From positions 1,550,001 to 1,614,000 of the forward strand of contig NZ_CP024621.1 in the NCBI RefSeq assembly GCF_009846525.1: 64,000 nt of DNA, written 5' to 3'. Under the pieces are notes generated by a model, which worked only from the letters and a program-made list of their open reading frames with translations, searched no databases and was not told where the DNA came from. The stretch comes from Halomonas meridiana (lineage in GTDB: Bacteria > Pseudomonadota > Gammaproteobacteria > Pseudomonadales > Halomonadaceae). Every line of letters starts with the position of its first letter. Within the stretch, counting starts at the first letter, position 1. Made by a program: the position numbers and the translations under genes. Positions 4,483-30,126 of the stretch are shown piece after piece.

Positions 4483-6426
4483 ATGACAGATGTCTTATTT
4501 TCCAGTTTGGGGCAGTTGTTTACTGTTCCCCATATGCTGTACATGGTGATTGGTGTCCTCATCGGTCTAATTGTGGGCATCATTCCTGGGCTTGGTGGCA
4601 TTGCGGGTATGTCGCTGCTGTTGCCCTTTCTCTATGGAATGGAGCCGTCTGTAGCGCTGGGCATGCTCATGGGTCTAGTGGCGGTGATCCCCACGGGCGA
4701 TACGTTTGCCTCGGTACTGCTTGGTATCCCGGGCTCTAGCGCTTCCCAGGCCACCGTTGTGGACGGCTTTGCGCTGGCGAAAAAAGGGCAGGCGGCACGA
4801 GCGCTGTCTAGCGCGTTTTTGTCGTCAATGATCGGTGGGCTTATCGGTGCTCTAGTGCTGACCGCCTTTATCCTGATTGCACGGCCGGTCGTGCTTTCGT
4901 TCTCTTCCTCAGAGCTGTTTATGTTGACGCTGCTGGGGCTCTCCATGGTGGCGGTGCTGTCTGGTAAGGATGTTTTCAAAGGCATTGCTGCCTGCGGCGT
5001 TGGCTTACTGGTGGGTACCATTGGTATGGCACCCGCCACAGGGGAGTTCCGGCTGCCGTTTGAAATTGACTACCTCTACGATGGATTGCCGTTAGTGGTG
5101 GTGGGGTTAGGTATTTTTGCACTGCCAGAAATCATTGATTTATTAGTGAAACGCGGCGCAATTGCCGAGCAGCCCTGCCAATTGGGCAAAGGCTGGAAAG
5201 AGGGCGTTAAGGATGTGGCCAAGCGGCCTGGACTGGTAGCTCGCTGCGCGGGGATTGGCAGCTTGATGGGCACGGTTCCTGGCTTGGCGGGCTCCGTGGT
5301 GGATTGGCTCACCTACGGCCATGCGGTGCAGAGCGCTAAGGATAAATCACAATTCGGTAAAGGCGATATTCGCGGTGTGATTGCGCCGGAGTCGGCTAAC
5401 AACGCCTGTGCCTGCGGCGCGATGGTGCCCACGCTACTGTTTGGTATTCCTGGGTCTGGTACAGCGGCGGTGTTTTTAGGTGGTTTGCTACTGCTGGGCC
5501 TTCAGCCTGGGGTGAGTATGCTGGAGACGAACCTTGACCTGACGTACACCATTATTTGGTCGTTAGCCCTGGCGAATATCTTAGGCGCTGCGCTCTGTTT
5601 AGGTTTAGCGCGCCCGGTGGCGAGCTTAACGCGGGTGCCGTTCGTGATTTTAGCGCCGCTGATTACCATCTTGATTCTCTTTGCGGCCTACCAAGCAACG
5701 CGCTCGCTGGGGGATCTTTTTGCACTCGGTATCATTGGCGCGATTGGTGTGCTGTTCAAGCAGGCGAATTGGTCTCGTCCTGCCTTCTTGATTGGTTTTG
5801 TGCTCGCGCCTGGTGCCGAAGCGTACTTCTATCAAGCTGCCCAGTTTCAGGGGGCTGAGGCCTTTATGCGGCCTGGCGTGCTGATCATTGGTGCTCTGAT
5901 TGCGGCATCACTGCTACTCCCGCCTCTACGCAGCTACTTGAAAAAGCGCCGTCAAGCAAATGAACCCATGACCCATGAGCTTCAGGAGGAAGTGGCTCCG
6001 CTGGCACTGGGCGTGATCGATGTCGCGTTGCTGGGTAGCCTGTTAGCAGTGGCGGGGTACATGTGGTGGGCATTTGCGGACCTTTCCATGCTGGGCGGCA
6101 TTATGCCTAGGCTGGCGATTGCCATTATTGTCGCGGCGTGCGTGCTGGAAATTATCAGAACGGTCATCAAGCCGATGAAGTGGCAAACGCAGACATTGAG
6201 TCAGCAGTTGACTTGGGTCGCCGGTTTCTTCGCATTAATAGGCAGTGTGATGGTGCTGGGCTTCCTATTTGCCGCTGCGGTATTTTGCCTAGGGTTCTTG
6301 CTGGTGGTGGCACGGATGAAACCAGTTGCTGCCGTGGGGCTGGCGGCGGGCGTCACGCTATTTCTGATGGGGATGGCCAACCTGCTAACGCTGACCTATC
6401 CGACAGGAATGTTGGCGGGGCTGTAA
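4483..6426 (+). CDS. Tripartite tricarboxylate transporter permease, TctA-TctB fusion
   Basis: This 647-residue inner-membrane protein couples uptake of the bound carboxylate to an ion gradient. Residues 1-500 are TctA, with many hydrophobic helices and the paired conserved loops GLIVGIIPGLGG and TVPGLAGSVVDW, plus the PGSSASQATVVDG and PGSGTAAVFLGG segments. After a charged linker (about 500-520) the last 125 residues form four more hydrophobic helices, as in the small subunit TctB. TctA alone is usually about 500 residues, so this is a TctA-TctB fusion, and no separate tctB is present. The ATG at 4483 is chosen because AAGAG precedes it; a GTG at 4438 lies inside the hairpin and is less likely. 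Confidence 0.88.
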   Translation: MTDVLFSSLGQLFTVPHMLYMVIGVLIGLIVGIIPGLGGIAGMSLLLPFLYGMEPSVALGMLMGLVAVIPTGDTFASVLLGIPGSSASQATVVDGFALAKKGQAARALSSAFLSSMIGGLIGALVLTAFILIARPVVLSFSSSELFMLTLLGLSMVAVLSGKDVFKGIAACGVGLLVGTIGMAPATGEFRLPFEIDYLYDGLPLVVVGLGIFALPEIIDLLVKRGAIAEQPCQLGKGWKEGVKDVAKRPGLVARCAGIGSLMGTVPGLAGSVVDWLTYGHAVQSAKDKSQFGKGDIRGVIAPESANNACACGAMVPTLLFGIPGSGTAAVFLGGLLLLGLQPGVSMLETNLDLTYTIIWSLALANILGAALCLGLARPVASLTRVPFVILAPLITILILFAAYQATRSLGDLFALGIIGAIGVLFKQANWSRPAFLIGFVLAPGAEAYFYQAAQFQGAEAFMRPGVLIIGALIAASLLLPPLRSYLKKRRQANEPMTHELQEEVAPLALGVIDVALLGSLLAVAGYMWWAFADLSMLGGIMPRLAIAIIVAACVLEIIRTVIKPMKWQTQTLSQQLTWVAGFFALIGSVMVLGFLFAAAVFCLGFLLVVARMKPVAAVGLAAGVTLFLMGMANLLTLTYPTGMLAGL

Positions 6427-10504: not shown

Positions 10505-12478
10505 TCAGGCCTTGTTCGGCGGCACGATGCCCTGGCGCTGCATTTGCCGATATATCGTTGGCCGTGATACCCCCTGCTCGCGGGCCACGGCGCTAATGTT
10601 CCATTGGTGTTGCTGCAGCTGAATGAGGAGTTGGCTATCGGCGGCCTCGTTTTCAGGCGCGGTGATGGCTGGCGAGTGGGTAATGCGCTGGCTAAGGCAC
10701 TGTTCAGGCAGGTCGTAAACGGTGATTTCATCGCTCTCGGCGGTGGCGAGTGCAAACGCCAGCGCGTTTTTAAGCTGACGAATATTGCCGGGCCAGGCGT
10801 AGGCGAGTAGGGCGCTGATGGCGTCGGCCCGCAGCCGAGGGGCGGAGCTTCCGCCGCGTTCGCCCACCACATCGCTAAAGACTTGGCGAATCACGTAGAG
10901 CTTGTCGGCGCGTTCGCGCAGCGGTGGTAAGCGCAGTTGGGCACCGTTCAAGCGGTAGTAGAGATCTTCCCGAAACTCCCCCCGCGCGATCATGGTATCG
11001 ATATGGCGGTGGGTGGCGGTAATCACCCGGATGTCGATTTTTTCCGGTTTATTGGCGCCTAGTGGCATGACCTCACGCTCGGCGAGTACGCGCAGCAGGC
11101 GGGTTTGTAGCGCCAGTGGCATATCGCCGATCTCGTCTAAAAACAGCGTTCCGCCATGGGCCTGAGGGATCAGCCCGCGCATACCTTTTGCTCGCCCGCC
11201 GGTAAACGCGCCGGGCTCGTAGCCGAATAACTCGCTCTCGATCAGCGCTTCGGGAATCGCCGCACAGTTCACCGCGATGAATGGGCCTTTGGCGCGGTTG
11301 CCGCTATCGTGCAGTGCGCGGGCAACCACCTCTTTGCCGGTGCCGGTTTCGCCGCTGATCAACACGTTGACACTGGCCTCGTTGCGCAGCCGTTCAGCCA
11401 ATTTTTGTAGCTTACGTATCGCAGGGTCGTCGGCGCCCAGTCGTTCTAGCGGCGTTGGCAGGGACGATGCGGGCTTGTCGCGGGATACGCTCCGCGGCCT
11501 ACGCGGCTCTAGCAGGCTAATAAAGTAGATGGCATTGCTGGCGCGGGCGCGAAATGCCCGCAACTGGTCGTTGGTCGCGCTGTTGATGCTGAGCACATCG
11601 GCAATCTCGCACTCGAAGAGCTCGCTAAGCATGGGGGCGTGTTGTGCAGACCACGGCGGCCAACGGCGTTGGTGTTCCTCCATCAGTTCACGGCCTACGG
11701 CGTTGGCGGCAATCACTTGGCCGTTCTCTTCTATCGCGATCAGCCCCCGCCCATTCACGTGTACGAACTCTCGCGAGGTATCCAGGCGCACCATCAAGCA
11801 GTCGCGGTAGCGCTGCAGGAAATAGGCGTCTTCGATCATGCGGGCGTAGAGCGTGACCAGCGAGAGGCTGAAGTTCTGGCTCTCATGCTGGGCAGGCGAC
11901 TGCAGCGCGGAGATATCCAGCACGGCCATGACGTTGCCGTGGGGGTCGGCGATAGGGGCAGCCGTGCAGGTCAGCGAAATATGCGTGGCGTCGAAGTGCT
12001 CCTGACGGTGGCAAATGATCGCTTGGCGGTCGTGTAGGCAAGTGCCGACCGCGCAGGTGCCCGCAAAGCGCTCGTCCCAATCCGCCCCTAAATAGAGGCC
12101 CGCTTTGCGCAGCTGCTGGTCTTGATGGGGGTTGCCGCGAAACTCCACGGTAATGCCGCGGTGGTCGGTAAGCAGCAGCACGTAGCCGAGCTGGGCGATT
12201 TGCCCGTATAGCTGCTCGACCCCGGCGCGGGCGACGTGCAGCAGCTCATCGACGGATTCCCGGTGCTCGATCAAGGTTTGCTGGGGCACCACCCGGGCAG
12301 GGCGTGGTTGCGTAGGGTCGAGCCGGTATTCGTTCAGACAGCGCAGCCAAGAGCGGCGGATGGTGGCCTGCGCCGGTAGCTGCGGTGCGTCCACGCCTTC
12401 ACCGAGCTGGAAGATGTGCTCGATATGCTGGCGCTGCACGGAGGCCAAGCGTGTCGGTGGTAGTGATGGCGTCGGCAT
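10505..12478 (-). CDS. Sigma-54-dependent activator, AcoR-like
   Basis: This 657-residue enhancer-binding protein has an N-terminal GAF-type sensor region (about 75-320), a central AAA+ domain (about 345-570) and a C-terminal Fis-type helix-turn-helix ([20 protein letters not shown]). Walker A is GETGTGKEV and Walker B is [12 protein letters not shown]. The sigma-54 contact loop reads GAFTGG instead of the usual GAFTGA. AcoR proteins sense acetoin or related diols and activate catabolic operons. This gene is divergent from the monooxygenase and butanediol dehydrogenase genes, whose promoter matches sigma-54, so it is their likely activator. Confidence 0.9.
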
Positions 12479-12692: not shown

Positions 12693-12708
12693 TGGCACGG
12701 CGGGTGCT
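12693..12708 (+). promoter_or_regulatory. Sigma-54 (-24/-12) promoter
   Basis: TGGCAC at 12693-12698 and GTGCT at 12704-12708 place GG and GC exactly 10 bases apart, as sigma-54 requires. The match to TGGCAC-N5-TTGCA has two mismatches, both in the -12 half. The preceding 50 bases are strongly AT-rich, suiting IHF-assisted looping. The predicted start of transcription is near 12720, about 46 bases before the first ATG. Confidence 0.8.
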
Positions 12709-12765: not shown

Positions 12766-14587
12766 ATGACTCACACAGAGGTAAGAACCCCATCCAGCGC
12801 TACCAGCACCGTCAACGCATGGCTGCATGAGTTTGATGAAGCGCTGCAGGCACGGGATAGTCAGCGCGTGCTGACGCTATTCAACGACGAGTGCTACTGG
12901 CGCGATTTTCTGGCGTTTACCTGGAATCTAAAAACGTGCGAAGGCAAGGAGGAAATCCAGGCCATGCTCGATGCCACGCTGGCCCGCACGCGGCCTTCTC
13001 AGTGGCAGCTCGATGGGGAGGCCAGCGAAAACGGCGATACCATCGAGGCGTGGTTCACGTTCAAAACGGCCATTGCCAGCGGCAAAGGCTACCTGCGTTT
13101 GAAGAACGGCAAGTGTTGGACACTGCTCACTACTCACTACCATGCAGGCGTTGAACGACTTCCCCGAACCGCGCAATCACCATCGCCCCAAAGGGGCCGA
13201 ACATGGTGCCAACAAACAGCGTGAAACCTGGCTGGAAGCCCGTGAACGTGAGGAAGCCGAGCTTGGTTACACGCGCCAGCCCTACTGCGTGATCATTGGT
13301 GGTGGCCAGGGCGGTATTGGCTTGGGGGCGCGGCTGAAACAGATGGGCGTGCCCACGATCATCATCGAGCGCAACGAGCGCGCGGGGGACTCTTGGCGCA
13401 AGCGCTATAAATCTCTCTGCTTGCACGACCCGGTATGGTACGACCACCTGCCTTACATCCCCTTCCCAGAAAACTGGCCGGTGTTTGCCCCGAAAGACAA
13501 AGTGGGCGATTGGCTGGAAATGTACACGAAAGTGATGGAGCTCAATTATTGGAGTTCCACTGAGTGTCAGAATGCACGCTTCGATGACGCCGCAGGTGAG
13601 TGGATCGTGAACGTGAAGCGCAATGGCGAAGAGATCACGCTACGTCCGAAACAGCTGGTGATGGCTACCGGGATGTCGGGGATGCCCAACGTGCCCAAGT
13701 TTGCAGGCGCGGAGAGCTTCGAGGGCGAGCAGCAGCACTCCAGCCAGCACCCAGGGCCGGATGCCTACGCCGGTAAAAAATGCGTGATCGTGGGCTCGAA
13801 TAACTCGGCTCACGATATTGCTGCCGCGCTCTGGGAGCATGATGCCGATGTCACCATGCTTCAGCGCTCCTCGACCCATATCGTCAAGTCGGACTCATTG
13901 ATGGAAGAAGTGCTGGGGCCGCTTTACTCGGAGGAGGCCGTCGCGGGCGGGTTGACCCACGAAAAAGCAGACCTACTGTTTGCCTCGATTCCTTACAAGG
14001 TGTTGCCCGATTTTCAACGTCCGGCGTTCGATGCCATCAAACGGCGGGATGCTGAATTTAACCAAAAGCTCGAAGACGCGGGCTTCATGCTCGACTTCGG
14101 TGACGATGAGTCTGGCCTGTTTTTGAAGTACCTGCGCCGTGGCTCGGGCTATTACATCGATGTGGGGGCCTGCGATCTGGTCGCCAATGGCGATATCAAG
14201 CTGCGCAGCGGTGTGGGTATCGAGCGGATCAATCCGCGCTCGATCACGCTCACCGACGGCAGCGAATTGGACGCTGATCTGATCGTCTACGCCACCGGCT
14301 ATGGCTCGATGAATGGGTGGGCGGCTCGACTGATTTCTCAAGAGGTAGCGGACAAGGTGGGCAAATGTTGGGGATTAGGCTCTGACACCACCAAAGACCC
14401 CGGCCCGTGGGAAGGGGAGCTGCGCAATATGTGGAAGCCCACCCAACAAGAGGCGCTGTGGTTCCACGGTGGCAACCTGCACCAGTCCCGGCACTACTCT
14501 CACTATTTGGCGCTGCAGTTGAAGGCGCGTATGGAAGGACTAGATACCCCCGTCTATGGGCTGCAGCCGGTTCACCATGTGTCTTAA
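12766..14587 (+). pseudogene. NTF2-like/flavin monooxygenase fusion gene, frameshifted
   Basis: Two overlapping frames encode the halves of one recognisable protein. The first (ATG 12766, TTGGAG upstream) gives an NTF2-like domain ending KCWTLLTT, then 30 out-of-frame residues to a stop at 13224. The second (ATG 13142 to 14587, 481 residues) begins MQALNDF and carries the FAD-binding VIIGGGQGGIGLG, an NADPH-binding VIVGSNNSAHD and ATGYGS near the end, typical of FMO/Baeyer-Villiger-like monooxygenases. Family members I know of carry both parts in one chain. Deleting one copy of a 7-bp tandem repeat at 13126-13139 joins the frames exactly into 604 residues. The second half could still be made by re-initiation, although no ribosome site is evident. 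Confidence 0.8.
13126..13139 (+). repeat. 7-bp tandem duplication causing the frameshift
   Basis: CTCACTA occurs twice in direct succession (13126-13132, 13133-13139), followed by CCATG. With one copy the frame reads T-L-L-T-T-M-Q-A-L through the junction. With two copies the frame shifts by one. The unit length, not divisible by three, makes replication slippage able to switch the gene off or back on. Confidence 0.9.
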
Positions 14588-14618
14588 AAGCCATGTGTCT
14601 TAACAGAAAGGGCAACCT

Positions 14619-15695
14619 ATGAGCCAGTCAACGGATCAATCACAGATGCAGGCCGCGGTGTGGTATGCGGCGAAAGATTTGCGCGTCGAACAGGTGCCGG
14701 TGCCGACCATCGATGACCCCCATGCGGTGAAAGTGAAAGTCGCCGCCTGCGGTATTTGCGGCAGCGATTTACACGAGTATGCCGCCGGGCCGATTTTTAT
14801 TCCGGTAGGCAAACCGCACCCCATTAGCGGCGGCCAGGCACCGATCATTATGGGCCATGAGTTCGCAGGCGAAGTGGTCGAGGTTGGTGAGAAAGTGACT
14901 CGGGTGAAGGTAGGCGACCGCGTGGCCATTGAGCCGATCCTCTCGCCTAATAAAGATGGCGCTTATCAGATGGAGCGCTACAACCTGACGCCGCTACTCG
15001 GCTTTCACGGCCTTTCCGGCGGTGGCGGCGGATTCTCTGAGTTCACCGTGATGGGTGAGCACATGGTGCACAAACTGCCGGATGACCTTAGCTTCGAGCA
15101 GGGGGCGCTGGTCGAGCCTGCGGCGGTCGCGCTGCATGCAGTACGCCAGAGCAGCCTCAAAGCCGGGGATAGTGCCGTGGTGTTTGGTGCTGGGCCGATT
15201 GGCTTGATGACCATCGAAGCGCTCAAAGCCGCCGGGGCTGCACAGATTTATGCGGTCGAAGTCGCGCCTTCTCGTAAAGCCAAAGCCGAAGTGCTGGGCG
15301 CCATCGTCGTCGACCCACAGCAAGAAAACGCGGTGGAAAAACTGCACGCTTTGAGCGGCGGCGGGGTGGACGTGGCCTTCGAAGTGACCGGCATTCCCGC
15401 CGTGCTAAATCAAGCGCTGCACAGCACCCACGAGGGCGGCGAAGTGGTGGTGGTGAGTATTTGGGAGTCAGAGGCCAGTTTTCAGCCTAATGACTTGGTG
15501 ATCAAAGAGCGCACCATGAAAGGCATTATTGCCTATCGCCATGTGTACCCAGCGGTGATGGCATTGATGCAGCGGGGCTACTTCCGCGCCGAGGATATGG
15601 TCACTCAACGCATTCCGCTGGCGGATATCGTGGAGGAGGGCTTCGAGGCGCTGTTGAACGATAAGGCGCAAGTCAAAATCATCGTTACGCCTTAA
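14619..15695 (+). CDS. 2,3-butanediol dehydrogenase, zinc MDR family
   Basis: This 358-residue medium-chain dehydrogenase interconverts 2,3-butanediol and acetoin with NAD. The catalytic-zinc motif CGICGSDLHEY and GHEFAGEVVEVG are present, with the conserved acid in LVEPAAVALHAV and the Rossmann VFGAGPIGLMTIEAL. The structural-zinc lobe (about 108-125) has no cysteines. From memory the B. subtilis BdhA enzyme also lacks them, so this is likely a family trait. AAAGGG precedes the ATG. It follows the broken monooxygenase by 31 bases and probably shares its sigma-54 promoter, consistent with AcoR-type control by acetoin or diols. Confidence 0.9.
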   Translation: MSQSTDQSQMQAAVWYAAKDLRVEQVPVPTIDDPHAVKVKVAACGICGSDLHEYAAGPIFIPVGKPHPISGGQAPIIMGHEFAGEVVEVGEKVTRVKVGDRVAIEPILSPNKDGAYQMERYNLTPLLGFHGLSGGGGGFSEFTVMGEHMVHKLPDDLSFEQGALVEPAAVALHAVRQSSLKAGDSAVVFGAGPIGLMTIEALKAAGAAQIYAVEVAPSRKAKAEVLGAIVVDPQQENAVEKLHALSGGGVDVAFEVTGIPAVLNQALHSTHEGGEVVVVSIWESEASFQPNDLVIKERTMKGIIAYRHVYPAVMALMQRGYFRAEDMVTQRIPLADIVEEGFEALLNDKAQVKIIVTP

Positions 15696-16711: not shown

Positions 16712-18445
16712 ATGGTGGAGAGTGAACGAGCGCGGCTGCTGGCGTTACATAGTTTAGCCATTTTGGATACTCCGCCAGAGGAGCGCTTCGATCGGATCAC
16801 CCGATTGGCTACTTCCATTTTTGACGTGGACATTGCGTTAGTGTCATTGGTCGATGAGGAGCGCCAGTGGTTCAAGTCACGTCAGGGCATTTCGCTGACG
16901 CAGACCTGCAGAAAGGAGTCTTTTTGCGCGCACGCCATTCAAGGAGAGAGCATCTTCGAGATAGAAGATGCCAGCCAAGATTCCCGCTTTGCTGACAATG
17001 TGCTGGTCACCGCCCGTCGCGGCATTCGCTTCTATGCAGGCGTGCCGCTGACCACTGCCAACGGCTTTCGAGTAGGCACCTTGTGTATCATCCACCCCGA
17101 GCCGCGCCGTTTGAGCCCTTCCCAGCGTCAGGTGTTGACCGACTTGGCGGCGTGCGTAGAAGATGAAATCAATCGAATTGGGCTGGAAAATGAGCTTACC
17201 AGGGTCAACGACGTTAAACGACAGTTGGCTGACGATGAATCTCGCCAGCGTTCACTGGTGGACGCATTGGCCGCACTTAACGATATCAGCACCTCTAATC
17301 ATTTAGGTATCGATAGGCAATTTCAGGAAGCGTTGGCGTTGGGCTGTCGCTATCTCAATCTTCAAATTGGCATCATTAGCCGTATCCATAGAGGGGTATT
17401 CGAAGTCGTCGCCGTCACGGCGCCGAAGGATGTCACGCTGGCGGCCGGCCAGTGCTTGCCCTTGGCCAATACCTACTGTGACATGACGCTAAAAACCAGC
17501 GGTCTATTGGCCGTTCACGATACGACCGAGAGCGATCTTAGGCATCATCCGTGTTACGACACCTTCGGCCTCAAAGCGTATATGGGATCGTCGATTCAAC
17601 TGGGTGATCAGCTCTTTGGAACGGTGAGCTTCTCTTCCGCCGATCCTCGCCAGCACCGTTTTGCTGAAACCGACACACTCTTCATCAAGCTATTGAGCCG
17701 TTGGATTGGCTCGGCGTTAGATCGGCAGCGAGTCGATGCACTGAAGAGCGAGTTCGTTTCCACGGTGAGCCATGAACTTCGTACCCCACTCACGGCCATG
17801 GCCGGCGGGTTGAAGCTAGTGCTGGGCGGTGCTACTGGAGAGCTACCCGAGAGCACCCACAAGATGCTCTCCATGGCATTGAAAAACGGCGAGCGGCTGT
17901 CTCTGTTGATCAATGATCTTTTGGATATCGAAAAACTCTTGGCGGGGCAGCTCAATGTTATTTGCCAGCCAAGAGAACTAGGAGAACTGCTCAAGGCTGC
18001 GCTACTTGAAAACCAGCCTTATGCCGATCAGCATGGCGTTGCTTTACGGTTGGAAACGCTATCGAAAGACCGTTTTATTAACGTCGATGTATTGCGCTTT
18101 CAGCAGGTCATGGCCAACTTACTCTCTAATGCTGCAAAGTTCTCTCGGCTTAACAGTGACGTCGTTATATATTGTGACGAGTTTGATAAAGAGATACGCA
18201 TCAACGTAAAGGATAGCGGGTGCGGAATACCTGAGGCGTTTAGGGGACGGATTTTCCAAAAATTTTCGCAAGCAGATGCGAGTGATCGACGCGTTAAAGG
18301 AGGAACGGGTTTGGGGCTTTCAATTAGTAAGGCGATGACCGAACAAATGGGGGGCACTATCGGTTTTCAATCCACAGAGGGAGAAGGTAGTACGTTTTAC
18401 ATAACTTTCCCTTATGCGGAGGTGCCTACGCGTGTTCGGCACTGA
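16712..18445 (+). CDS. Soluble sensor histidine kinase with two GAF domains
   Basis: This 577-residue kinase has no membrane segment. GAF domain 1 spans about 20-155, a short coiled-coil linker follows, GAF domain 2 spans about 190-335, and HisKA holds the phospho-acceptor His354 in STVSHELRTP. The ATP-binding domain has the N box (VMANLLSNAAKFS), G1 (KDSGCGIP) and G2 (GGTGLGLSIS). There is no receiver. It is the first gene of a four-gene overlapping signalling operon, so phosphate probably passes to the receivers or Hpt encoded downstream. Its kinase core closely resembles that of the next gene, suggesting duplication. TGAGG lies 9 bases before the ATG. Confidence 0.9.
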   Translation: MVESERARLLALHSLAILDTPPEERFDRITRLATSIFDVDIALVSLVDEERQWFKSRQGISLTQTCRKESFCAHAIQGESIFEIEDASQDSRFADNVLVTARRGIRFYAGVPLTTANGFRVGTLCIIHPEPRRLSPSQRQVLTDLAACVEDEINRIGLENELTRVNDVKRQLADDESRQRSLVDALAALNDISTSNHLGIDRQFQEALALGCRYLNLQIGIISRIHRGVFEVVAVTAPKDVTLAAGQCLPLANTYCDMTLKTSGLLAVHDTTESDLRHHPCYDTFGLKAYMGSSIQLGDQLFGTVSFSSADPRQHRFAETDTLFIKLLSRWIGSALDRQRVDALKSEFVSTVSHELRTPLTAMAGGLKLVLGGATGELPESTHKMLSMALKNGERLSLLINDLLDIEKLLAGQLNVICQPRELGELLKAALLENQPYADQHGVALRLETLSKDRFINVDVLRFQQVMANLLSNAAKFSRLNSDVVIYCDEFDKEIRINVKDSGCGIPEAFRGRIFQKFSQADASDRRVKGGTGLGLSISKAMTEQMGGTIGFQSTEGEGSTFYITFPYAEVPTRVRH

Positions 18446-21400
18446 ACGAATCGGACGCTTCAATGGGGCTCCTTGGTATCTAGGTATTCTGTTTGCGTGT
18501 CTGCTCGTCGCTGGCGTGGCGGGCAATATGCTACAGCTTTCGGTACTGTTTAACGTTTTTTTCGTATTTGGCTCGGTGGCTGTCATGCTAGCCGTTGCTT
18601 GGCTGGGGACATGGCCAGCGGTACTGATTGGGGTCGCCTCAGGCGTTTATACTTATGTCTTTTGGGAAAATCCCGTCACCGTCATGGTGTTCATCCTAGA
18701 GGCGCTCGTGGTCTCTTGGCTTTACCACCATAAAGTCAAAAACTTGATCATTGCTGCACTGATCTTTTGGACGGCGATCGCCGCCCCGATCGACTTTCTA
18801 TTATTGCCTTTGTGGTTAGGATGGAGCCAAGAGCTAACGCTGCTGGTGTATTTAAAACAAGCCATTAACGGTGTTTTCAACGCGGTCATCGCTAGCGCGA
18901 TCATTATTGTTTGTGGGCTATCTCAACGGTCTTGGCTGCCGACGGCAGGGGCTTTATTAAGGCTCAAACATCTGCTGTTTTGTGCCCTATTGTCGGTCAC
19001 ATTGATGACGGGTATTCCGCTGATTCTGTACGAAGGCCATGCCATGCGTCAGGGGCAAGAAAACTTTGTCAACCAAACGCTCAATGCCATGGGCAACGAG
19101 CTGGTGGGGCGTTTGTCGGAACCCGGAGCCGATCAGCGTTTCGTTTACCATATTGGTCGAGTAAGGGCAGATAGCAACGTCAATATTGGACTACTCGATG
19201 CAGAGGGTGAGCTGCTGGCACAGGTAGGTCATCTCAACTCACTAACGCTGGCATCTGGAGATGAACTCATCGATCTAGACGAGCGCATGCGTATGTGGCT
19301 TCCAGGCAATTTGGATAACCCGGCCGTTCGCTTTTCTCAGGGGTTTTATACACTACAGTTACCTGCCCGCGGCGTAGGAGGTGTCGATCACGTATTGTTA
19401 GAGACGCCGGCACTGCCTACCGTGCGTGCCATGGAAGCTTATCGGACCGTTTTGTTTGCCATGTTAGCGGCAGTATTGATCTTTGGCATCGTGGCGGCTG
19501 AACTCTTGAGCCGTATGATTACTCAGCCGCTAACCCGTCTCGGCAAAAAAGGGCGGACGCTGAGCGATTCGATTGCCAAAGGCAAAACGCCCAAACTTCC
19601 CGACAGTCGCATCGTCGAGTTCCAACAGCTATCTAATTTATTGGGTGCAATGAGCGCGGAACTCAGCGATGCGTTCAAACGCCTTCGCCATACGCAGAGC
19701 AATTTAGAGCGCGAGGTCGATCAACGCACCAGAGCACTCGCCAGTAGCAATGATTTGCTGAGCTCGGTGCTCGATGCTGCCGTGGATTTTGCCATTATCG
19801 CCATGGATACCCAGGGAGTGATCAAGCTGTTCAACAAAGGTGCTGAAGACCTTTTGGGATATCAGGCGAGCGAGGTCATCGGAGTGCAAACTCCTATGCT
19901 GTTTCACGATGCCGATGAAGTCGAACAGCGGCTCCTCGAACTGAGCCAGAGTGCAGGCCATACCTTGATGCCCTTGGAGGTGTTTACCCACCGGGCTGCC
20001 CTGGAAAAGCGCGATGTCAACGAGTGGACCTATCTGACCCGCGCGGGCGATCGTGTGCCCATCAAGCTGGTGGTGACCGCTATTAAAGATCAGCAAGGCA
20101 CGATTACCGGTTACTTGGGCATCGCCGAAGATATTTCTGAATCGAAGCGCGTCGAGCAAATGAAAAACGAGTTTGTCTCGACCGTGAGTCATGAGCTGCG
20201 TACGCCGCTTACGTCCATTTCGGGAGCGCTGGGTATGGTCGCTGCCGGGGCGCTTGGCAGCGTGCCGGATACCGTCATGCGTATGGTCAACATCGCGCAT
20301 AAAAATAGTCAGCGGCTCACCCACTTGATCAACGATCTGCTCGATATCGAAAAAATAGCCGCCGGTAAACTGGCGTTCGATATGCAGTGGCAGTCGCTAC
20401 AGCGTTTACTGGAGAGTGCCATCGAGGAGAATCGCCACTATCGCCATGAGCGGCAGGTGACGTTGACGCTGGATAATCCTCATTCGGATACACAGGTGCG
20501 TGTCGATGGTCAGCGGCTTCGTCAGGTCATGGCGAACTTGCTCTCCAATGCCGTGAAGTTTTCGCCGGAGGGAGGGGAAGTCCAAATCAGTGTCGATAAG
20601 CAAGACCATAAGATTACGGTGACCGTCAAAGACGATGGGCCAGGAATTCCTGACCACTTCAAAGGCCATATTTTTAGTAAGTTCGCACAAGTCGATGCCT
20701 CCGACTCGCGAGCGAAAGGGGGAACGGGGCTGGGTTTGGCGATTACGCGCGAGCTAATCGAGCACATGGAAGGTGAGATGGGCTTCGATTCAGAAGAGGG
20801 CAAGGGTAGCTGTTTCTGGTTCTCCCTGCCTCTTCATCCTTCGGATACCCTTAGTGATTCGCGGGGCGCTGACGCGGGCCGAGTGCTGGTGATCGAGGAT
20901 GATCCTTCCGTCGTGCGTGTTCTGTTTGAAACATTGGCTCAAGCCGGTTTCGAAGTGGACTCTGCCTTGAACGGTGCCATGGCGCTGGAGAAACTGGCCA
21001 ACCAACGCTATGACGCCATCACCGTCGATATTGGGCTACCCGACATGAGCGGTTTCGATGTGATTCATGCGCTGCGACAGCAGCGGGCGTCGAAGCATAC
21101 TCCCGTTATGGTGGTGACGGGGAGCATGGAGCGAGGAAGTGTCGCTTTGGAAGGTCATTTAGAGGACATCGCCTGGTTGGCAAAACCCATTCAGACTGAA
21201 CAACTGCTAGCACTACTCAGCGAGCAGTTGCAGACTCATCAAGAGCGCTTGAGGCTGCTGCATATCGAGGATGACCCCGACCTCCATGCGGTCATACGCG
21301 CCATGCTGGATGCGCATGAAGAGTGTGATCACGCGGTGAGCGTGGCCATGGCACGTCGCCACTTAGCCTATCGACGCTACGATGCCATTATTTTGGATAT

Positions 21401-24827: not shown

Positions 24828-26126
24828 CTATAACGTCAAGTTCTCAGATCCGCCTTCTGTCACTAGGATATTATCCTCGATGCGTATGCCTCCGCACACG
24901 GCGAGCCGGTCGACCAGCGTCCAGTCGATGGGGTGGGGCTTTTTACGCAGTGGTGCCAGCAACATGGGAATGAAATAGAGGCCTGGCTCGATGGTGATGA
25001 CCATACCGGCTTGCAGCGTACGGGTGAGACGCAGGGCTGGATGGGTGTCAGGTGCTGGCGATGGGCTCCCGTCTGGCTGCCTCAATCCGGCCACATCGTG
25101 TACCTGAATCCCTAATGAGTGGCCCAGTCCATGCGGGCAAAAGGCGCGGGTAACACCGGTTTCCACGGCGCTCTCTGCGCTGCCCTGATACAGTCCGTGC
25201 GAGATCAATATGTCGGCTAGGCCTCGGTGCATCTGCTCATGTAGCGTTAGAAACTCGATGCCAGGAACGATGTGGGTGATGAGTTCATCTTTCAGACCGT
25301 GCATGGCGCTGATTAACTCGCCAAATTCGCTGGGTGCATCCGGGCCTGCATAGGTACGGGTAATGTCCGCACAGTAGCCGCGAAAACGACGGCCCGCATC
25401 GACTAGCAGGCTATAACGCCGTTTGGGGGCTGACAGGTCATAGCGCTGATAGTGTAAGACCCCGGCATGCTCATTTAGACCGATAATGTTTTGATAGGGA
25501 ACGTCCGACTCTCGCTGTCGGCTGGCCCCTAAATAGGCGAGCTGCACATCCAGTTCGGCCGACGCACCGATAAAAGCAGCATTAGCCGCTTGGTGGCCCG
25601 CAATTGCTAGTCGATTGGCTTCGCGCAGGCAAGCCACTTCGTAGGCGGACTTGACCATGCGCAACTCATCGAGTTCGCGTACCAAGCCTTCGGGATGAAG
25701 TGCGGCGACATTGGCGAGGGGTGTCGTGCTCGCGAGCTCCTTCAGATCGCCGATCACGGCAGCGTGTCCGGTGAGCGGCGGGGTGATTTTATCGCTACAT
25801 AAATGTACGTCGAACTCCGCCACCCAGGGTTCTTCAGGCAGCTGAGTCGGTAAGTGCCAAAAATCGGCAGGCGCGTACAGATAAAGCTGGGGGCGCTGAT
25901 GGGGCTGAATCACCAGCCAGCTGTGCTGAACATCGGCCATCCCCACCCAATGAATGAAATGGCCATAGGACTGAAAGCTGGTGGCATGGTCATCAGCGAA
26001 GTGGTTGTTCGCATGGCCGCTGTATATCGCCAAACTATCCAGATTATGCGCCGCCATGCGCGCTTGATAAGCATGATTCAGTGCTTGGATGTGGTCGCGC
26101 TGCAGTTGATAGAGGGTTGCTGACAT
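24828..26126 (-). CDS. pepQ: Xaa-Pro dipeptidase
   Basis: This 432-residue cytosolic M24B metallopeptidase hydrolyses Xaa-Pro dipeptides (and some organophosphates in related enzymes). The dinuclear-metal ligands are visible: aspartates in LLVDAGRRFRGYCADITRTY, histidine in FCPHGLGHSLGIQVHD, and glutamates in MVITIEPGLYF and GGIRIEDNIL. Length matches E. coli PepQ (443). AAAGGAC precedes the ATG. It lies next to a LysR gene and the dipeptide transporter genes on the same strand, so it likely processes imported proline peptides. Confidence 0.94.
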   Translation of the reverse strand: MSATLYQLQRDHIQALNHAYQARMAAHNLDSLAIYSGHANNHFADDHATSFQSYGHFIHWVGMADVQHSWLVIQPHQRPQLYLYAPADFWHLPTQLPEEPWVAEFDVHLCSDKITPPLTGHAAVIGDLKELASTTPLANVAALHPEGLVRELDELRMVKSAYEVACLREANRLAIAGHQAANAAFIGASAELDVQLAYLGASRQRESDVPYQNIIGLNEHAGVLHYQRYDLSAPKRRYSLLVDAGRRFRGYCADITRTYAGPDAPSEFGELISAMHGLKDELITHIVPGIEFLTLHEQMHRGLADILISHGLYQGSAESAVETGVTRAFCPHGLGHSLGIQVHDVAGLRQPDGSPSPAPDTHPALRLTRTLQAGMVITIEPGLYFIPMLLAPLRKKPHPIDWTLVDRLAVCGGIRIEDNILVTEGGSENLTL

Positions 26127-26138
26127 ATAAACGTCCTT

Positions 26139-27050
26139 TCAAAGTCGGGGCGGTGAGAGCTGGCCCCACAAACTATCGAGTTCGGCATGGTGCTGGCTTT
26201 GGTGACGATACAACCGCAGCTCCATGGGTACGTCCCAGCGGCTGTCGCCCGCCCTGACCAAGGTGCCGTCAGCTAGCTCTGCGGCCACATTGCGCTCGGG
26301 TAGCCAGCTCATGCCATACCCCAGCAGCACCAGTTCTTTGATACCCGCTGCATAGAGGTTTTCGCTCTGTGCCGTTAAGTACGTGCTTTGCGGCAACCGT
26401 GCCAAATGTGCTTTGACAGCCGAGCCGAGTAGCCCACGTTTGGGGTAGGCCAGCCAGGGCACTGGCTGCTGGCGAGCGCCAGGCAGTAGTGCACACGGCG
26501 ACCCGTCGTTTTTACGCCCGGTCACGGGAATTAGCCGTTCATGCCCAATGACTCGATAGGTGCAGGCGCTAGTGTCGATATCCAGATCGCAGCGTCCAAC
26601 GGGCCAATAGCAAATCGCTAGATCGCACTCTGCCCGAGCCAGCGCCTGAAAGTAGTCGCTGGCCACCCAGCCCGTCGCGCGAAGGTAGGGCTGAATGCGC
26701 TCCTGCCAGCCGCTGCTGGCTAACCATTCCGGTAGAAAATGCGCCAGCAGACTTTGCGGTGCGGCTACCATGATTCGCCGCTGCTGACCGGCGCTAATTT
26801 CACGAACGCGGTCGCGTGTCAAACGCACCCGGTCGGTGACCTGTTCGCAGAGCGTCAAGAACTCTTCACCCGCAGGCGTCAACGACAGCGGTAACGTTTG
26901 TCGGTTGATCAACGTGACGCCCATTTCCTCTTCGAGCAGTTTGATCCGCCTTGAAAAGGTAGGCTGCGTGACGTGTTGTTCGTCGGCGGCGCGGGAGAAG
27001 TGTCGCGTTCTGGCCAGGGCAATGAAGTCTTCTAGCCAGCGAATTTCCAT
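26139..27050 (-). CDS. LysR-family regulator, HypT/YjiE-like
   Basis: This 303-residue regulator has an N-terminal winged helix (MEIRWLEDFIALARTRHFSRAADEQHVTQPTFSRR) and a LysR effector domain. The opening residues and the late segment LLGYGMSWLPERNV resemble the E. coli hypochlorite-responsive regulator HypT as I recall it, but the key residues of that protein were not compared. It lies 12 bases upstream of pepQ and downstream of dppF, all on the same strand. It may control the peptide genes. GAGG precedes the ATG by 9 bases. Confidence 0.85.
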   Translation of the reverse strand: MEIRWLEDFIALARTRHFSRAADEQHVTQPTFSRRIKLLEEEMGVTLINRQTLPLSLTPAGEEFLTLCEQVTDRVRLTRDRVREISAGQQRRIMVAAPQSLLAHFLPEWLASSGWQERIQPYLRATGWVASDYFQALARAECDLAICYWPVGRCDLDIDTSACTYRVIGHERLIPVTGRKNDGSPCALLPGARQQPVPWLAYPKRGLLGSAVKAHLARLPQSTYLTAQSENLYAAGIKELVLLGYGMSWLPERNVAAELADGTLVRAGDSRWDVPMELRLYRHQSQHHAELDSLWGQLSPPRL

Positions 27051-27099
27051 GCCTTACCTCGCAAAACGACCAAGCGTATGGCGCTTGAAGGGGCCGCGC

Positions 27100-28161
27100 T
27101 CATAGGCGGCCTTCCTCAACAGCGTGACACGCTACGCGGGTGCCGTCATCCTGGGTTATCAAAGCAGGTATTTCTTGCTTGCAGCGGGCGTTAGCATGGG
27201 GACAACGACCATGGAAAACGCAGCCGCTGGGTAAGTTGACCGGTGTCGGCACTTCACCCGACAGGCGAATATGCTGAGGGCGGTCGTCCTCCAAGCGGGG
27301 AATGGCCGACAGCAATGCCTGGGTATAGGGGTGGCGAGGCTTGGCAAACAGCGTGGCGGTCGTGGCGACTTCACATACGGTGCCCAGATACATCACGGCC
27401 ACCCGTGTCCCAAAGTGCTCGACCACCGCCAGATCGTGGGTAATGAACAGATAGGTCAGGTTGCGATCCCGCTGGGCATCCATCAGCAGGTTGAGCACCT
27501 GTGCTTGGATAGAGACGTCCAGCGCTGAAATGGGCTCATCGGCGACGATGAATTCGGGATCGACGGCCAGCGCACGTGCAATGGCAATTCGCTGACGCTG
27601 ACCGCCAGAAAACTCGTGGCCAAAGCGCTTGCCCCAATCGGGGTCGATACCCACCGAACGCATCACCTCCTCGACTTTATCGAGGATCTGCTGGCGGTTC
27701 CAGTCGGGATGGTGAAGCCGCAGTGGCTCTTCCAGCGTCTGCTGAATGGTCATGCGTGGGTTCAGCGACGCGTAAGGGTTCTGGAAGATCATCTGCATGC
27801 GCTTGCGGTAGGGCAGGAGCTGCTTCGAGCTGAGATCGTCGATGCGCTGGCCGTCGTAGCGAATTTCACCCTCTGACGGAGAAATCAGCCCCATGACCGT
27901 GCGCGCCACGGTGGACTTACCGCAGCCAGATTCACCCACCACGCAGAGCGCTTCGCCGCGCTTGATGTCCAGATTGACGCCGTTAATGGCGTGGACATAC
28001 TCCTGATGGCGAATCAGCTTGCCGCCTTTGAAGCGTAGCTGCTCCAGAAAATCACCGGAGAGTGAGAAACGCTTTTTAAGACCGCGAATTTGCAGTAGCG
28101 AGTCGTTGCTCGCTTCGTTTTGGGTCGGCATGGTCGCGATCGTTTCCGCCTGGGCGTTCAT
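27100..28161 (-). CDS. dppF: Dipeptide/oligopeptide ABC transporter ATPase
   Basis: This 353-residue cytosolic ATPase is the second of the pair that powers peptide import. Walker A is GESGCGKSTVART, the ABC signature is EFSGGQRQRIAIARAL, and Walker B is EFIVADEPISALD. A C-terminal oligopeptide-family extension holds the cysteine set CVFHGRCPHANARC, which in relatives binds an Fe-S cluster. The start overlaps the stop of the preceding dppD by four bases (ATGA). Confidence 0.92.
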   Translation of the reverse strand: MNAQAETIATMPTQNEASNDSLLQIRGLKKRFSLSGDFLEQLRFKGGKLIRHQEYVHAINGVNLDIKRGEALCVVGESGCGKSTVARTVMGLISPSEGEIRYDGQRIDDLSSKQLLPYRKRMQMIFQNPYASLNPRMTIQQTLEEPLRLHHPDWNRQQILDKVEEVMRSVGIDPDWGKRFGHEFSGGQRQRIAIARALAVDPEFIVADEPISALDVSIQAQVLNLLMDAQRDRNLTYLFITHDLAVVEHFGTRVAVMYLGTVCEVATTATLFAKPRHPYTQALLSAIPRLEDDRPQHIRLSGEVPTPVNLPSGCVFHGRCPHANARCKQEIPALITQDDGTRVACHAVEEGRL

Positions 28162-29174
28162 AAGCTCTCCTCCTTCAAGCGGCGATCTTCCAACATTTCC
28201 GCCACCATGTGGCAGGCCACGCGACAGTTGCCAGACTCGACGAAATCGGGGACTTGCTGGGTGCAGGCCGGCCGGGGGAGCCCGTCGGCGCGGTTGATAA
28301 AGTCACAGCGGGGATGGAACGCACAGCCGCTGGGCAAATTAGAGAGTGACGGCATACTGCCACGAATCTGGTTGAGTTTTTCACCCGGCGTCGCCATTTG
28401 CGGAAGTGCATTGATCAAGCCTTGGGTGTAAGGATGTTGCGGGTCGTTGATGATTTCCCGCGTAGGGCCCTGCTCGATGACGCGGCCAGCGTACATCACC
28501 AGCATACGCTGGGTCACTTGGCTTACCACGCCCAGATCGTGAGTGATCAAAATCAAGCCCACGTTGTGCTGTTCGCATAGCTCCAGCAGCAGCGCCATGA
28601 TTTCGGCTTGAATCGTCACGTCCAGTGCCGTGGTGGGTTCGTCGGCAATGATGATGTCCGGGTCGAGTAGCAGGGCAATGGCGATGATGATGCGCTGGCG
28701 CATCCCGCCGGAAAGCTCGTGGGGATACTGATCCAAGCGCTTTTCGGGAGAGGGGATCTGCACCTGGCGTAGTTTGTCCAGGGCGATGGCCCGGGCTTCT
28801 TTGGTGGAGATGCGGCGGTGGGCCTTCAAGCACTCCACCATCTGTTCGCCGATGGAGAGCACTGGATTCAGTGTCATCATCGGGTCTTGGAAGATCATCG
28901 AAATGCGGTTGCCGCGCACTTTGCGCAGGCCTCGCTCCGACATGCTGTTGAGCTCTTTGCCTTCGAACGTGATGCTTCCGCCCGCAATGAAACCGGGTTT
29001 GGCGATCAAATTCAGCAACGAGAAGGCGGCGACGGATTTACCCGCGCCCGATTCGCCGACGATACCCAGGCGCTCGCCGCGCTCGAGAGTGAAGTTGACG
29101 TCGCGCAGGGCGCGTACTTCGCCCTGGCGCAGGGCAAAGCGGACGTCGAGTTGAGAGACTTCAAGAAGTGCCAT
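28158..29174 (-). CDS. dppD: Dipeptide/oligopeptide ABC transporter ATPase
   Basis: This 338-residue partner ATPase has Walker [16 protein letters not shown], signature [17 protein letters not shown], Walker [14 protein letters not shown] and the C-terminal cysteine motif [21 protein letters not shown]. Together with dppF it forms the heterodimeric motor. TGAGGA precedes the ATG. It lies 7 bases after dppC and overlaps dppF. Confidence 0.93.
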
Positions 29175-29181
29175 GGTGTCC

Positions 29182-30126
29182 TCAGCCTTTGTAGAGTCGT
29201 GGGTTCATGACATCGCGCAGCCAGTCGCCCAGAAGATTGATCGACAGCACCAGCACGACCAGCACCGCACCGGGGATCAGCGTGATCCACCAAGAGCCTG
29301 ACTGAATGTAGTCAAAGCCTGCTTTGATCAGCGACCCAAGTGAAGGGTGAGTTTCCGGCATGCCCAGCCCTAAAAACGACAGCGCTGCTTCAGAAATGAT
29401 GGCGTTAGCAATTTGCACCGTCGAAATGACGAAGATCGGTGACAGCGTATTGGGCAGCACGTGACGGAACATGATGCGCTTGCTGCGCAGGCCCATGACG
29501 CGGGCGGCGTCGACGTACTCTTTGTTTTTCTCGGCGAGTACCGAGGCGCGCACCGTGCGCGCGTACTGGGGCCACTCGGCCAAGCCGATGATCAAAATCA
29601 GCATCAGCACGGCGTACTGGCTGTAGAAAGCACTGCCCAAGGTGGCTTTCACCACGGCCCCCACGACGATGGCTACCATCAGTGTCGAGAACGAGAGCTG
29701 GATATCCGCCAGACGCATCAGGAAGGCGTCGACGCGGCCGCCCAAATAGCCTGCCATCAGCCCGAAGGTCACCCCCAACAGCGCTTGCAGCGCCACGGCG
29801 CCAAAGCCGATCAGCAGCGATACCCGCGTGCCGTAAAGGATGATCGAAAGCAGGTCCCGGCCCTGAGCATCGGTGCCCAGGGTGTACATCGGGTCGGCGC
29901 CATCGATCCAGAAGGGAGGTAGCTCGGAGGCAAGAATGTCTATCTGTGACAAGTCATAAGGGTCGGTAGGTGCCAGTAACGGTGCCGAAAACGCCGTCAC
30001 GACCAAGCAAACGAACACGGCAAGGCAGAGCTGTGCCGTGCGGTCGCGCTTGAAGCTGTACCACAAAAAGGAGTCGCGCAGGCGCTCCCAGCGGCTTGGT
30101 GCGGGGGTAGAAGTGGACGTTGTCAT
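29182..30126 (-). CDS. dppC: Dipeptide ABC transporter permease
   Basis: This 314-residue inner-membrane permease has an N-terminal cytoplasmic tail, a first helix (about 30-52), a periplasmic loop with YTLGTDAQGRDLLS and a BPD-transport core of about five helices. The ATPase-docking EAA loop reads EYVDAARVMGLRSKRIMFRHVLPN. It overlaps dppB by ATGA, showing translational coupling. Confidence 0.93.
   Translation of the reverse strand: MTTSTSTPAPSRWERLRDSFLWYSFKRDRTAQLCLAVFVCLVVTAFSAPLLAPTDPYDLSQIDILASELPPFWIDGADPMYTLGTDAQGRDLLSIILYGTRVSLLIGFGAVALQALLGVTFGLMAGYLGGRVDAFLMRLADIQLSFSTLMVAIVVGAVVKATLGSAFYSQYAVLMLILIIGLAEWPQYARTVRASVLAEKNKEYVDAARVMGLRSKRIMFRHVLPNTLSPIFVISTVQIANAIISEAALSFLGLGMPETHPSLGSLIKAGFDYIQSGSWWITLIPGAVLVVLVLSINLLGDWLRDVMNPRLYKG

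Follow-up and report, generated by a model that had tools for sequence, protein, structure and literature searches.

A gene for a two-domain flavin monooxygenase (FMO) of Halomonas meridiana is split between two reading frames by a perfect 7-bp tandem duplication. The gene occupies positions 12766–14587 of a 64,000-nucleotide stretch of DNA (NZ_CP024621.1, positions 1,550,001 to 1,614,000 of the forward strand), called the window hereafter and used for all coordinates. We consider it likely that the duplication is a recent, private loss-of-function mutation, caused by slippage, in a dispensable and probably sigma-54-controlled gene; most probably the locus shows a commonplace new loss of function rather than an inbuilt switch. 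The finding matters mainly for annotation: the two open reading frames (ORFs) found here should be annotated as a single, disrupted type II FMO gene, and neither as two genes nor as a phase-variable switch.

The tandem repeat, CTCACTACTCACTA, consists of two copies of CTCACTA on the plus strand at exactly 13126–13139, where the earlier note had located it, and occurs once on that strand of the window. The nearest relative, the sister genome G033 (locus L002), has a single copy. As that note had also calculated, the extra 7 bp amount to a net step of one base, and this step separates the frame that opens at ATG 12766 (frame 0) from the monooxygenase frame at 13142–14587 (+1 frame). Frame 0 (12766–13224, plus strand) encodes a SnoaL/NTF2-like N-terminal monooxygenase domain (Pfam PF12680, 2.6e-06), departs from the family sequence after KCWTLLTT, and then runs through 29 out-of-frame residues to a stop codon that ends at 13224. 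The +1 frame on the same strand is open beyond 13102 and ends at 14587, and the first start codon in it is ATG 13142; the 481 residues from there make up a flavin monooxygenase domain with Rossmann folds for flavin adenine dinucleotide and for reduced nicotinamide adenine dinucleotide or its phosphate (Pfam Pyr_redox_3, 7.8e-23; FMO-like, 3.4e-16). From 13103 to 13224 both frames are open. In G033, a 123-codon match to the N-terminal part continues directly into a 481-codon match to the C-terminal part, which, like the frame arithmetic, agrees with the fused product of 604 residues proposed earlier.

Judged by its sequence and structure matches, the disrupted gene is a type II FMO, in which a SnoaL/NTF2-like domain is fused to a flavin monooxygenase. 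The closest solved relative is JsFMO from Janthinobacterium svalbardensis (PDB 8ACS). Residues 17–123 of frame 0 match chain positions 29–137 of 8ACS (E 7.1e-25), and residues 2–481 of the +1 frame (480 of 481) match chain positions 139–618 (E 1.6e-259). Both type II FMO domains are thus present and in the order seen in JsFMO, the SnoaL-like domain before the monooxygenase; whereas JsFMO is a single polypeptide, of 618 residues in its PDB entry, and the relatives have both domains in one frame, the window has them in different frames. In the downstream frame, H95 aligns with position 232 of the 8ACS chain, D96 with 233 and Y337 with 474. If the chain numbering runs 16 ahead of that in the paper, an offset that fits all three, they would correspond to the active-site residues His-216, Asp-217 and Tyr-458 of JsFMO, and the positions of all three fall within the downstream frame. 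Mapped on 8ACS with the same offset, the duplication falls near residue 121/122, where the SnoaL domain ends, and just ahead of the long loop (residues 126–150) that connects the two domains of JsFMO (PMC10028610). The motif FxGxxxHxxx[YF][KR] has no strict match in the window frame, where FEGEQQHSSQHP has FxGxxxH and then HP at the last two positions; the aligned 8ACS chain also ends in HP at these positions, though JsFMO is credited with the motif (PMC10028610). In NCBIfam, no family passed its cut-off with the monooxygenase, and the N-terminal frame gave none. Structure matches of the monooxygenase frame included 4c5o, 4a9w and 4usq, which we take to be entries of the short type II FMO group (SMFMO, CFMO and PSFMO). 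That group is a clade of its own whose members are short by nature (PMC10028610), whereas the shortness of the monooxygenase ORF in the window would come from mutation. Type II FMOs of the JsFMO group are reported to use both NADH and NADPH and to carry out Baeyer–Villiger oxidation of ketones (PMC10028610), and the ancestral one-chain type II FMO is predicted to have been of this Baeyer–Villiger-active kind.

At the DNA level, we compared the locus with its nearest relatives, namely the best 30 matches of a search of 82 genomes of the genus (L001–L030) and the best 80 of 586 confirmed loci (L031–L110). Removal of 9 duplicate records from these 110 fetched loci left 100 distinct relatives plus the window. 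A frame was counted as open if it reached 90 codons or more upstream from the homologous codon. By this measure the frame across the site is open in 109 of the 110 fetched loci, the window alone being closed, and each of the 100 distinct relatives has a single open frame there. None of them has the tandem copy, and the 7-mer CTCACTA itself is found at the site in only one, G033. With the halves apart in 0 of 100 distinct relatives, contrary to the outcome that the earlier note had named as refuting its reading, the single-chain family supposed there is borne out, and we rejected the idea that the halves are normally separate genes. The genus search gave the same picture on a broader scale: with an orthologue defined by at least 85% identity and the totals counted from the result rows, 52 of the 82 genomes have an orthologue, and in 50 of these 52 it is a single frame of at least 603 codons. 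The two exceptions are the window's own genome and G068, whose locus (L157, outside the 100) also has one frame through the duplication site. In G068 the orthologous monooxygenase gene, on the reverse strand, carries an independent single-base frameshift near its 3′ end. G006 gave a match of 32 codons only, and the other 29 genomes gave distant matches (13) or none (16). Because of the separate frameshift in G068, the short match in G006 and these 29 of 82 genomes, the gene is, on comparative grounds, dispensable in the genus. Named records among the loci belong to Halomonas/Vreelandella and, farther away, to Marinobacter, Janthinobacterium, rhizobia, Paraburkholderia and others.

Perfect 7-bp tandem pairs as such are not unusual. 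The window contains two, against 3.4 expected from 20 mononucleotide shuffles, and we therefore rejected the notion that this repeat stands out statistically on its own. The other pair, ACCCATG x2 at 5964–5977, lies inside the open tctA frame and is non-disruptive. The CTCACTA duplication goes beyond chance because no tandem copy occurs in the 100 distinct relatives and because it is the only perfect tandem insertion or deletion of at least 5 bp, in either direction, between the window's genome and G033 over about 420 kb aligned. A single 4-bp perfect tandem difference, in the opposite direction, was found in the same alignment. One duplication in about 420 kb also led us to reject the view that the genome is full of such events.

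The event is young. Between 12856 and 14699, a tract of about 1.84 kb, the window differs from G033 (L002/L113) by two substitutions (at 13352 and 14060) and the duplication. The 7-bp insertion is the sole gap across the gene, and the 481 codons of the C-terminal part show two non-synonymous differences and no synonymous ones. Along positions 1–50720, the initial 50.7 kb of the window, the two genomes are 6.8% diverged, a comparison that supports the very recent break suggested previously. Across a 464-kb region the median divergence is 12.4% (gaps counted; 1,583 overlapping windows of 1,500 bp), and 0.8% of the 1,500-bp windows have a divergence of 0.5% or less. The gene is not alone in its closeness to G033: divergence is low at 17501–19500 and at about 25751–29500 as well. 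The tract at 12856–14699 was most likely shared with G033 very recently, probably by recombination, and the duplication would have followed later; by alignment it is private to this genome and young. Since there has been little time for decay, the otherwise intact state of the two halves says nothing on function.

At the site, the unduplicated sister sequence contains the tetramer CACT twice, with a spacing of exactly 7 bp. Replication may have stepped back 7 bp between these tetramers; the strand would then have paired again, and CTCACTA would have been copied twice. Translation from ATG 12766, which has a Shine–Dalgarno duplex energy of −5.9, would leave the frame after the last family residues and stop at 13224, so that the monooxygenase domain would not be made from the normal start. 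ATG 13142 has no Shine–Dalgarno sequence: its duplex energy is +2.2, and of 1146 ATGs on the plus strand only 3, counting this one, have a value no better. The ORF that it opens shares 83 nt with the upstream frame. In the relatives the corresponding codon is internal to the chain and in some reads Leu or Ala, and we rejected this ATG as a conserved start. The duplication most likely abolishes the enzyme, and the gene appears to be turning into a pseudogene: the frame is broken relative to a conserved intact orthologue, with few other changes. Known recent frameshift pseudogenes likewise have a private young insertion or deletion in a dispensable gene, and G068 offers an independent frameshift in this very gene. 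Nothing essential distinguishes the window from such cases; its break happens at a domain boundary.

Several points weigh against a recent loss of function by slippage. The CACT microhomology yields the observed product only with extension of a mismatched terminal base. A poor Shine–Dalgarno sequence alone does not exclude a start, because duplex energies are weak as well at the listed gene starts 18414 (+1.5) and 16633 (+0.4). The break is very close to the domain boundary and could leave two working parts. Finally, both the fixation of the duplication and the loss of function are presumed from the assembled sequence of one strain.

An error of sequencing or assembly, in which case the true chromosome would have one copy and an intact gene, is unlikely, though the assembly gives it some ground. 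In the 464-kb comparison, a simple longest-ORF list shows 5 of 341 matched G033 ORFs (this one included) as split between frames in the window's genome; in the reverse direction the figure is 2 of 347. The four other splits are single-base gaps, three in runs of about six G and one beside GGGG; they look like homopolymer miscalls, and loss would be odd in genes such as that for cytochrome bd subunit II. These four genes, in the same genome outside the window (L117:7323–8803, L122:18458–19560, L131:8242–10025 and L132:14635–15632), encode a PAS_2-domain protein, an ABC transporter ATPase, a gamma-glutamyltranspeptidase and cytochrome bd subunit II. One-base gaps in runs of 6–7 G number 3 versus 1, but those in runs of at least 5 G are balanced at 3 versus 3 and a general bias is not seen; these tallies include alignment noise. 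Taken from such alignments, the splits suggest that the assembly has some base-level errors. However, a homopolymer miscall differs in kind from a perfect 7-bp duplication, here the sole one of its size between the two aligned genomes, and on these grounds we favour a real mutation. In that case the strain would also offer a naturally divided form of a protein in which the role of the N-terminal domain is described as unclear (PMC10028610).

The earlier note had proposed, as the alternative to a very recent pseudogene, a reversible on/off switch, that is, a phase-variable contingency locus at which slipped-strand mispairing gains or loses the second copy and turns the enzyme off or on. This proposal found no support, and we regard it as very unlikely. 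The 7-bp unit is indeed not a multiple of three and lies inside a coding frame, and both halves are otherwise undamaged; however, the undamaged halves follow from the youth of the event alone. There are two copies only and the product is a metabolic enzyme. Nor is a variable tract maintained among the relatives, where the tandem copy occurs in 0 of 100 and the 7-mer is absent from the site in 99 of 100. Spontaneous tandem duplications with phase variation have been cited for pneumococcal capsule genes, and there, as in the window, a tandem duplication within an ORF breaks the frame and could excise exactly (PMC4022640). The two cases differ in that phase variation is reported for the capsule genes (PMC4022640), whereas the window locus is known from assembled sequence. 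Slippage can excise any short tandem duplication, but such events are expected to be rare; the reversion predicted for two 7-bp copies is low, and a pneumococcal study puts it at no more than about 1e-5 for insertions up to 9 bp (PMC4022640). Literature on short tandem duplications as switches and on microhomology-mediated tandem duplications contained no comparable bacterial enzyme gene among the matches listed, which included titles on reversible frameshift silencing in M. tuberculosis (PMC8339072) and on 7-bp repeats of Haemophilus hmw (PMC10127715). The hmw repeats of Haemophilus share a 7-bp tandem unit with the window, but they are present in many copies in the promoter of an adhesin gene, outside the coding frame, whereas the window has two copies inside an enzyme gene.

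Gene fission, by which the SnoaL and monooxygenase domains would now be two overlapping working genes, is highly doubtful. The position of the break, near residue 121/122 and just before the loop, leaves the three active-site positions downstream; moreover, some type II FMOs are short and lack the N-terminal extension, and the N-terminal domain is reported to make no active-site contact (PMC10028610). The second gene, however, would have to start at ATG 13142, with its missing Shine–Dalgarno sequence, its 83-nt overlap with the upstream frame and a Met that is internal, or replaced by Leu or Ala, in relatives. Because the duplication sits at the seam of the two domains and is reversible in principle, it is conceivable that the locus alternates between the one-chain enzyme and a split state, with a free SnoaL-like domain and perhaps a short monooxygenase resembling the short type II FMOs. 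Such a domain-level switch or incipient fission has a similarly slim chance; if true, it would reveal the function of the puzzling N-terminal domain. A +1 ribosomal frameshift that restores the full-length product is hardly credible: the frames overlap at 13103–13224, frame 0 reads CCC and then C after the duplication, and such proline codons can slip, but the relatives need no shift, and a slip there would leave out-of-frame linker residues.

The recent loss-of-function mutation that we favour lies in a gene with a putative sigma-54 promoter. A divergent gene on the minus strand (10505–12478) encodes a sigma-54-dependent activator with Sigma54_activat (PF00158, 8.1e-65) and Fis-type helix-turn-helix (PF02954, 9.9e-06) domains, and a regular-expression match identified a putative −24/−12 type promoter-like site, TGGCACGGCGGGTGCT, at 12693–12708 on the plus strand. 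A similar putative site is found upstream in 57 of the 101 distinct loci (window included), among them all 36 nearest ones (L001–L030, L037–L039 and L043–L045). The conservation of this site opposite the activator gene supports the sigma-54 context that had been suggested. An activator match (E ≤ 1e-20) is present in the fetched DNA of 69 of the 80 named loci; at the more distant loci it is often 31–47% identical and may be another sigma-54 activator. Downstream on the plus strand, 14619–15695 encodes a zinc-dependent alcohol/polyol dehydrogenase (Pfam ADH_N and ADH_zinc_N), probably in the same operon as the monooxygenase, and the genes may serve in the use of secondary alcohols and ketones. 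A real mutation would make the strain a natural experiment on the loss of the enzyme in a probably sigma-54-controlled alcohol/ketone gene cluster. A dehydrogenase homologue lies directly downstream at 13 of the 15 nearest named loci (L031–L045) and at 3 of the next 14 (L046–L059), and at 16 further loci the dehydrogenase is only 36–41% identical and lies upstream of the monooxygenase.
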